From Halalkalicoccus sp. CGA53 (GTDB lineage Archaea > Halobacteriota > Halobacteria > Halobacteriales > Halalkalicoccaceae), in NCBI RefSeq assembly GCF_036429475.1, contig NZ_CP144125.1, forward strand, positions 1,798,001 through 1,862,000: a DNA stretch of 64,000 bases, written 5' to 3'. Numbering within the stretch: position 1 is the first letter of the stretch; every line of letters starts with the position of its first letter. The notes under the pieces are model-generated. The model was not told the origin of the DNA. It saw only the letters and a list, made by a program, of their open reading frames with translations, and made no database searches. A program made the translations under genes and the position numbers. Below are positions 3,414 through 5,557 of the stretch, piece after piece.

Positions 3414-3583
3414 CGCTCGTTCGAGAGTTATCTACCACCCGACTTAACTGTTGTCAGAATCCGAGCAACAGATCGGGTATCCCCACGGAACGATCGGGGC
3501 GGGTGAGCGACGACTCCGCTCTCGGATCCGGCGTTCGTCCGCGGTCCGCTTCCGAGGCGAGAGTCCGAGCACGCGGTGGGCCC

Positions 3584-4246
3584 CTACGACGGGTTCCGGT
3601 GGTCGCTCGCCGGGTCACCGAGCAGGTGGACCGCCATCCGCCCGGCGACGTAGCCGAACGCGGCGATCAGGTGCGCGAGCAACACGAGCAGACCCAGACC
3701 GACCAGCGAGGCGAGCGCGCCCTCGGGGAGCGTCCCGATCGTCCAGACGACCGGCTCGCCGTTCACCTCGCCGAACTCGACCGTGTGGGGGAGCCTGGCG
3801 ACCGCCGTGGCCATCGAGAGCGCGCTGCTGAGCGCGAGCCCGAGCAGGCCAACCCAGAGCTTCATCGAGACGAACGCGAGCGCCCGCCAGGTGAAGCCGT
3901 CGTCGAGGTAGCTCCGGAGCGTTCTGATAAGGCCGTCGCCTCCCTCGGGTGACACCGGGCGTTCCATCTCGACGCCGAGCAGCGACTCCGCGAGCACGTA
4001 CTCGAACCGACCGGCGAGCCGGCACGCGAGCACCGTCGCGAGCATGATTCCGAGCCCGACGACGAGGATCGAGAATGCCAGCCCGATGACGAGCCCGAAC
4101 CCGAGCGCCATCGAGTAGACGAAACCGATCGGGAGCGCGAGCAGGAGGTAGAGCAGGGCGAGGTAGGTCCGTCGCCGGAGCAGCGGGCCGACGACGCTCG
4201 CTACGATCCCCGTCGATGCGCCAGTTCGGTGGCTCTGACCGGTCAT
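3584..4246 (-). CDS. putative sensor-domain membrane protein
   Basis: 220 residues with four to five hydrophobic helices at about 27-46, 48-72, 118-150 and 175-205. The pairwise layout, with RRTYLALLYLLLALPIG leading the first helix and a soluble stretch around 75-115, fits the putative sensor domain family (PF13796 type). That family is often found in haloarchaea and in bacterial two-component proteins. No kinase or DNA-binding domain is attached. It is transcribed away from hisC, and the shared 228-base intergenic region contains a long inverted repeat. Confidence 0.65.
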   Translation of the reverse strand: MTGQSHRTGASTGIVASVVGPLLRRRTYLALLYLLLALPIGFVYSMALGFGLVIGLAFSILVVGLGIMLATVLACRLAGRFEYVLAESLLGVEMERPVSPEGGDGLIRTLRSYLDDGFTWRALAFVSMKLWVGLLGLALSSALSMATAVARLPHTVEFGEVNGEPVVWTIGTLPEGALASLVGLGLLVLLAHLIAAFGYVAGRMAVHLLGDPASDHRNPS

Positions 4247-4275
4247 CGCTCGGGAGCAGTCACCGCTCCGTACTT

Positions 4276-4355
4276 ATACTGTCGGCTGTAAGTCGTTCAA
4301 GATTATCGCGCCCCCGTGGTGCCGAGAATCTTCACACAGTTACAGCCGACAGTAT
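4276..4355. repeat. perfect 16-bp inverted repeat forming an 80-bp near-palindrome
   Basis: The left arm atactgtcggctgtaa (4276-4291) is the exact reverse complement of 4340-4355. Inside it a second imperfect inverted pair (agatt near 4300 and aatct near 4327) makes the whole stretch nearly palindromic. If the element is taken as 4277-4354, it is flanked on both sides by the trinucleotide TTA, which could be a target-site duplication. It is either a miniature mobile element or hairpin repeat, or a widely spaced operator between hisC and the sensor-domain gene. Confidence 0.75.
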
Positions 4356-4444
4356 TAGGCTTCCGTCCGTGTTCAGGCCGGGAAAGTCGGCTCGCAGAGC
4401 GCGTCGATCGGGCGGGGAAGCCCGACCGGACGCGTATGTGCACG

Positions 4445-4450
4445 CTTAAG
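4445..4450 (+). promoter_or_regulatory. TATA-like box for hisC
   Basis: cttaag lies 25-30 bases before the chosen hisC start at 4475, the spacing expected for a leaderless haloarchaeal transcript. This supports 4475 over a more upstream start. Confidence 0.5.
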
Positions 4451-4474
4451 GGCGCACCTTCCGTCCGAACCGAC

Positions 4475-5557
4475 ATGCACCCACGGGACCTGTCCTCGCA
4501 CTCGGCGTACGTCGCCGGGCGCGGGATCGAGGAGGTGGCCCGGGAACTCGGCCTCGATCCCGACTCGCTCGTGAAGCTCTCCTCGAACGAGAACCCGCTC
4601 GGCCCGAGCCCGAAGGCGGTCGAGGCGATCCGCACACACGCCGACCGCGTCCACACCTACCCGAAGAGTTCGGCGGTCGACCTGAGAGAGGAGATCGCCG
4701 ATCGCTGGAGCGTCGCCCCCGAGCAGATCTGGCTCGCCAACGGCGGCGACGGCGCGCTCGACTACCTCGCCCGTGCGCTACTCGATCCGGGTGACCGCGT
4801 GCTTGTTTCGGAACCCGGCTTCGCCTACTACGCGATGAGCGCCCGGTTTCACCACGGCACAGTCGCGAGCTACCCGATCTCGAAGGCCGACGACTTCGCA
4901 CAGACCGCCGACGCAGTGCTCGAGGGCTACGACGGCGAACGGATCGTCCACCTCACGAGCCCGCACAACCCGAGCGGCTCGACGATCTCCCTCCCCGAGA
5001 TCGAGGCACTCGCCGACGGAACTGGGGAAGAAACGCTGGTGCTCGTCGACGAGGCCTACGGCGAGTTCAGTGTGAGAGAGAGCGCCGTCTCGCTGCTCGG
5101 GGATCGCGACGACGTCGCCGTCCTTCGTACCTTCTCGAAGGCCTACGGGCTCGCTGGGCTCCGGCTGGGCTACGCCGTCGTTCCAGGTGCCTGGGCCGAC
5201 GCCTACGCGAAAGTGAACACGCCGTTCGCCGCGAGCGCGCTCGCCTGCCGGGCGGGTCTCGCCGCGCTCGACGATCGGGAGCACGTCGAGCGCTCGGTCG
5301 AGATCGCGACCGAGAGCCGGGAGTACATGTACGAGGGCCTCGACGCGCCGACCTGGGAGAGCGAGGGGAACTTCGTGCTCTGTGAGGTCGGCGACGCGAG
5401 CGCGATCGCCGACGAGCTCCAGCGCCGGGGGATCATCGTCCGGGACTGTACGAGCTTCGGGCTGCCCGCCTGCATCAGGATCACCTGCGGGACCGAAGAG
5501 GAGACCGAGCGCGCGGTCGAGGCCGTGAACGACGTGCTCGCGGAGGTCCCCGCGTGA
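4475..5557 (+). CDS. hisC: histidinol-phosphate aminotransferase
   Basis: 360 residues, the family length. This PLP-dependent class I/II aminotransferase converts imidazole-acetol phosphate and glutamate to histidinol phosphate in histidine synthesis. Diagnostic stretches are LSSNENPLGPSP near the N-terminus (the SNENP substrate motif), LANGGDGALDYLARALLDPGD, HNPSG, DEAYGEF and the Schiff-base lysine in RTFSKAYGLAGLRLGY. The frame is open further upstream across the inverted repeat, but the family match begins at MHPRDLSSHSAYV and a TATA-like box fits 4475. Its stop overlaps the start of the adenylate kinase gene by four bases (GTGA). Confidence 0.92.
   Translation: MHPRDLSSHSAYVAGRGIEEVARELGLDPDSLVKLSSNENPLGPSPKAVEAIRTHADRVHTYPKSSAVDLREEIADRWSVAPEQIWLANGGDGALDYLARALLDPGDRVLVSEPGFAYYAMSARFHHGTVASYPISKADDFAQTADAVLEGYDGERIVHLTSPHNPSGSTISLPEIEALADGTGEETLVLVDEAYGEFSVRESAVSLLGDRDDVAVLRTFSKAYGLAGLRLGYAVVPGAWADAYAKVNTPFAASALACRAGLAALDDREHVERSVEIATESREYMYEGLDAPTWESEGNFVLCEVGDASAIADELQRRGIIVRDCTSFGLPACIRITCGTEEETERAVEAVNDVLAEVPA

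Follow-up and report, generated by a model that had tools for sequence, protein, structure and literature searches.

What is the hairpin that stands between two divergent genes of Halalkalicoccus sp. CGA53, and how did it come to be there? The genome of this strain comprises 4.04 Mb in two contigs, and the stretch of it under analysis, called the window throughout, is 64,000 nucleotides long. In the window, the arm ATACTGTCGGCTGTAA at positions 4276–4291 is matched by its exact reverse complement at 4340–4355, and a repeat search extended the inverted repeat to 36 nt with 81% complementarity (4273–4308 and 4323–4358). The RNA fold of 4266–4365 reached −42.5 kcal/mol (z = −7.6) and the DNA fold of the 78 bp a z of −9.3, with 0 of 200 shuffled sequences folding as well in either case. 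The near-palindrome with 16-bp perfect arms that a first-pass annotation had pointed out is therefore borne out by both the letters and the fold. It had also been placed correctly: on one side lies a hisC-like aminotransferase gene (Aminotran_1_2, PF00155; 4475–5557, plus strand), whose start region is conserved in two congeners, and on the other a Sensor-domain gene (PF13796; 3584–4246, minus strand). The hairpin lies in the divergent intergenic region, 120 bp upstream of the start of hisC and 30 bp upstream of that of the Sensor gene. No Rfam family matched positions 3500–5000 at E ≤ 1.

The boundaries needed a small correction. The triplet TTA occurs as a direct repeat at both flanks (4274–4276 and 4355–4357), and therefore the 80 bp of the first-pass annotation, although right as to the hairpin, extended by one base into each TTA; without these bases, the element is an imperfect full-length hairpin of 78 bp at 4277–4354. 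Its left terminal inverted repeat, TACTGTCGGCTGTA (4277–4290, plus strand), is the part conserved across genera and is mirrored by the right one (4341–4354, minus strand), both being defined by the sequence, the arm patterns and an alignment of copies, while folding and alignment delimit a sequence-variable inner hairpin at 4299–4332. The short length and the inverted ends, with 14-base arms that are conserved, are those of a MITE.

Is this hairpin peculiar to its place? A BLAST search with the 80 bp found 14 near-full-length places in the genome of the strain (L001–L014), 73–100% identical, and arm patterns added two further places with both arms. The whole genome has 16 occurrences (8 + 8) of the exact 14-base arm and 0 of the reversed-arm control; within the window alone, the arm at up to three mismatches gave 3 matches against 2.13 expected, which is not above chance. 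The suggestion of a genome-wide hairpin repeat, to be checked by looking for many copies, thus proved correct. Furthermore, the element is common in haloarchaea, with the exact arm present in 69 of the 391 genomes of the class and in 29 of 86 genera; 44 arms were counted in a single genome. When genome contigs were searched for both arms in exact form, 51 stretches were obtained, all but two of them haloarchaeal by title. One exception is titled only "Euryarchaeota archaeon"; the other, an exact two-arm copy, lies in a bin named after the bacterial Nitriliruptoraceae (SKSM01000107.1, L417), and we suspect a haloarchaeal contig that was perhaps mis-binned. Relatives of the element were also seen in ten plasmid records, from Natribaculum, Haloarcula, Halomicrobium, Natronorubrum and Haloplanus, seven of the ten matches lying under no annotated feature (two of the records concerned have hardly any annotation). 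Sibling repeats whose ends are related were found too, as was a version of ~104–109 bp. No match to the element was found in the phage collection. In IMG/VR, the bare 14-base arm was found in at least 120 stretches; the 80 listed carry one arm each, and these matches were set aside as chance.

If the hairpin was inserted, the flanking triplets should be the trace of the event. From the haloarchaeal loci retrieved, a search window of 60–112 bp yielded 172 distinct short elements of 65–109 bp, among them elements with sibling ends. Identical 3-bp flanks were present in 115 of them. T-N-A stood on both sides in 118, and the middle base was the same in 114 of these pairs, compared with 47.7 expected if the two sides were independent (TCA 55, TGA 47, TTA 7, TAA 5). 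A plain longer palindrome in place of a duplication would predict complementary middle bases, which were found in only 2 of the 118 pairs, and was rejected. Because the flanks across copies are direct T-N-A repeats, the TTA of the window is a true target-site duplication, as had been considered possible in the first-pass annotation, and its length is fixed, both in these 114 pairs and in Natribaculum, where T-N-A is duplicated exactly in all 15 copies examined. The target consensus at cleanly flanked insertions is C-T-S-A-G-like, best given as C-T(C/G)-A-G. The remaining 57 elements have unequal 3-bp flanks, which we read as decay. Among them, TGA on the left with CGA on the right occurs in 11 and TCG with TCA in 4 (for example, L003, L005, L006, L047 and L050), and T to C in one copy of the duplication is the commonest change. 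The length is divisible by three in 101 of the 172 elements, mostly owing to the dominant 78 bp, which with the 3-bp duplication adds a frame-keeping 81 bp.

Direct evidence of movement came from the same genus. In one congener (G001), the Sensor/hisC region is present with flanks 88% (left) and 92% (right) identical, there is no element between them, and a single TCA stands where the window has TTA-element-TTA. The empty orthologous site that a mobile origin calls for was thus found beside dispersed copies, in one instance. In the second congener (G002), no arms were present at hisC, and the spacer is more diverged. Elsewhere in G001 there is a 78-bp copy that does not differ from the one in the window; it lies inside a sibling repeat and has TGA on both sides, and the outer sibling repeat has TCA on both sides. 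Other elements also lie beside or inside siblings (L083 2683–2850, L076 2380–2590 and L213 550–712), some with proper duplications both inside and outside. The Natribaculum breve plasmid CP095391.1 has 13 copies, of which 11 are 100% identical and the others 99% and 98%; therefore, transposition in this strain was recent, in the manner of a burst, and the strain is one in which transposition might be caught. One N. breve copy lies inside a DDE_Tnp_1 (PF01609) transposase gene (L535 1–822) and leaves the reading frame open; this gene is a victim of the element, not its partner.

Taken together, the dispersed copies, the 3-bp duplications, the empty site, the insertion into a sibling repeat and the Natribaculum burst uphold the earlier idea of a tiny non-autonomous mobile element. 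Judged from these comparisons, the 78-bp hairpin is very probably a copy of a MITE-like non-autonomous element that was moved by a transposase acting in trans, with duplication of its T-N-A target. In such a mechanism, a transposase provided in trans, which we infer from the ends and the duplication to be of the DDE type, would cut out or copy the near-palindrome with its 14-bp ends TACTGTCGGCTGTA; the element would insert at a T-N-A target, preferably C-T(C/G)-A-G, and the three bases would be duplicated. At this locus, it would have come to lie between hisC and the divergently oriented Sensor gene. Since the exact ends, the target and the duplication are now defined, the copies can be annotated and dated.

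Could the hairpin instead regulate hisC or the Sensor gene, as an operator or attenuator that selection has kept at this place? The divergent intergenic position, so near both starts, and the strength of the hairpin would suit such a role, which the first-pass annotation had offered as its alternative. However, G001 lacks the element at the corresponding position, the sequence immediately ahead of hisC is conserved in its absence, and the same element sits at many other places. Furthermore, we asked whether one conserved copy precedes the hisC orthologues of six relatives, namely the two congeners and four further family members (G001–G006; L478–L482 and L487), and none of the six hisC loci holds an arm at up to three mismatches. 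The operator reading fails as an account of the origin because there is no arm near hisC in these relatives, and we consider it highly improbable. A REP/BIME-like palindrome moved without duplication by a Y1 enzyme (RAYT or IS200/IS605), or a repeat of the Haloquadratum SMR or PATE type, might be suspected from the size and the hairpin shape, the SMR-A elements being ~110 bp long with inverted ends according to the passages on them in PMC3119063. In the same passages, SMRs are without target duplication, SMR-A elements favour PATE/IS605 palindromes, and PATEs have no inverted repeats at their ends (PMC3119063). The present element has terminal inverted repeats, unlike PATEs and other IS605 derivatives, and clear 3-bp T-N-A duplications across its copies, which show an identity with any of these groups to be wrong; we give this alternative almost no weight.

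As far as the pertinent passages of PMC3119063 and PMC10969869 go, prokaryotic MITEs resemble the element in being short, non-coding, dispersed and hairpin-forming, with inverted ends and a target duplication; on the other hand, 78 bp is very short, and no transposon with the same ends was found. Five MITE families are described for Haloquadratum walsbyi in the part of PMC3119063 that treats them. The SMRs of Haloquadratum covered there are likewise small and have inverted ends matching no known transposon, but they do not duplicate the target as the element duplicates T-N-A (PMC3119063). The 3-bp duplication also differs from the 5, 8 and 10 bp that the section on Halobacterium transposons gives as the most common lengths in that genus (PMC3119063). 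In the literature on haloarchaeal MITEs, palindromic repeats, stop-codon insertion, T-N-A duplications and the text of the arm, we found no recognisable account of the element; ISfinder or supplementary tables may list the family.

Where, then, is the autonomous partner? The long end-pairs inspected enclosed ordinary genes by Pfam, for dehydrogenase, DNA polymerase IV-like, PAC2, FAD-dependent and TrmB-like proteins; those of 662 bp (L126), 1,392 bp (L145), 1,544 bp (L110), 1,567 bp (L156), 1,570 bp (L168) and 2,227 bp (L213) were rejected on this ground, and several long end-pairs are plainly two short elements flanking a gene. The strain's own genome has 15 DDE_Tnp_1 (PF01609) hits, none of which was seen to be flanked by matching ends; the same is true of 11 of 14 such hit loci in three other genomes. 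DDE_Tnp_4 gave no hit above the cut-off in eight genomes, and the PF01609 and PF13359 searches of the tested genomes yielded no transposase with the ends of the element. One of the DDE_Tnp_1 loci in the other genomes, L464 (G108:C1, near 243337–243813), has a lone decayed right arm with a TCA flank ~1 kb from the transposase gene, with no left arm within 120 bp. On the Natribaculum plasmids, the arm at one mismatch gave, beyond the two-arm copies, only scattered single arms (on CP095395.1 about as many as the reversed control), and seven plasmid stretches read by eye showed no partner. A 290-bp place (G000:C2:1432923–1433212; L082 1424–1713) was also considered as a partner and rejected, being a mosaic that matches IS5-family genes. 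This mosaic has the ends TACGGTCTGCTGTA, and an ~83-bp stretch of it is found on Natrinema and other plasmids as well.

The IS1031 group of the IS5 family makes a 3-bp TNA duplication. It is like the element in its T-N-A target and duplication length, but no such transposase or matching ends were found at the PF01609 loci of four genomes. RUP, Correia and similar mobile palindromes of bacteria are tiny, often extragenic and thought to be moved in trans; they differ from the element in ends, target and hosts. RUP and SPRITE are both named in the portion of PMC10969869 that bears on such repeats.

Does the element settle at particular places with respect to genes? Some of its insertions lie on stop codons, and we tested for an excess there, using gene calls from a codon-based caller and leaving out 58 of the 172 elements because they do not show the same T-N-A on both sides. 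On annotated plasmid stretches, this caller, trained in the same way, recovered 25 of 43 stops with one extra call (three stops are counted twice, as L455 and L476 overlap) and so misses many plasmid genes; another training of the caller recovered 14 of 43 with no extra call and was left out of the counts. Among the 114 cleanly flanked insertions, 58 were exactly on a called stop codon, 51 were elsewhere in intergenic DNA and 5 were in called genes. The caller ignores start codons, and therefore the window copy, one of these five, is called "in gene" although it lies upstream of hisC. The unused sites within 1 kb comprise 142 stop T-N-A and 1,730 other intergenic T-N-A. After 6 of the 114 insertions had been dropped as redundant, 54 of the 103 non-coding ones were at stops, compared with 19.6 expected from the local availability of T-N-A and 32.0 expected once sites were also weighted by the target context of the non-stop insertions; 54 was reached in 0 of 20,000 simulations under either model. 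The stops took 58 insertions against 142 unused sites, compared with 6 against 87 at 1–20 bp downstream. Across three strata of divergence, the share at stops shows no steady increase (14 of 27, 12 of 37 and 28 of 44), and it is 20 of 53 for exact arms and 34 of 55 for mismatched arms. Annotated plasmid places checked by hand had a stop at the duplication in 1 of 4 distinct places; on the Halomicrobium mukohataei plasmid, the duplicated TCA is the annotated stop of a universal stress protein gene. These results indicate that the excess at stop codons is real; it could reflect targeting, retention or a 3′-end function.

Since the T-N-A duplication rebuilds TGA or TAA exactly, the gene stays whole. 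It is conceivable, if well short of probable, that this mobile hairpin of haloarchaea either targets stop codons or persists at them, and hence is a mobile 3′-end module across the Halobacteria with its hairpin just after the last codon. A related explanation accepts the mobile origin and would account for the stop excess by many copies now being retained as 3′-end hairpins of genes, as terminators or mRNA stabilizers. Besides the 58 of 114 insertions at called stops and the excess over both expectations, the inner pairs speak for it to some extent. We aligned 70 copies, out of 130 of 76–80 bp, and found the ends nearly invariant and the middle variable; for the full symmetric structure, 134 cells showed two-sided changes that keep the pair, whereas shuffles gave 92.6 and slid controls no more than 105. 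However, two of five covariation measures were not above the shuffles, namely the pairs with two-sided changes (22 vs. 21.0) and the pair types (63 vs. 62.8), and relatedness may explain the others. RNAalifold retained only 9 pairs, all parts of the outer arms. The two-sided changes hint that the hairpin may matter, and relatedness can also produce them. Moreover, the copy in the window does not lie on a stop codon, and 0 of 15 Natribaculum copies were called at one (L497 perhaps is, by eye). Retention as a 3′-end hairpin is thus rather unlikely. If the stop excess does reflect targeting or selection, selfish DNA could persist in compact genomes without breaking genes, and the element might provide 3′ ends to archaeal transcripts.

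A last observation concerns the Sensor gene. On the minus strand (window 4247–4280), the motif TATAAG starts 32 nt before the start of this gene and is formed by the end of the element together with the TTA duplication; the empty site of G001 has a different sequence at this position. To go by the motif, the element may have given the Sensor gene a TATA-like box.
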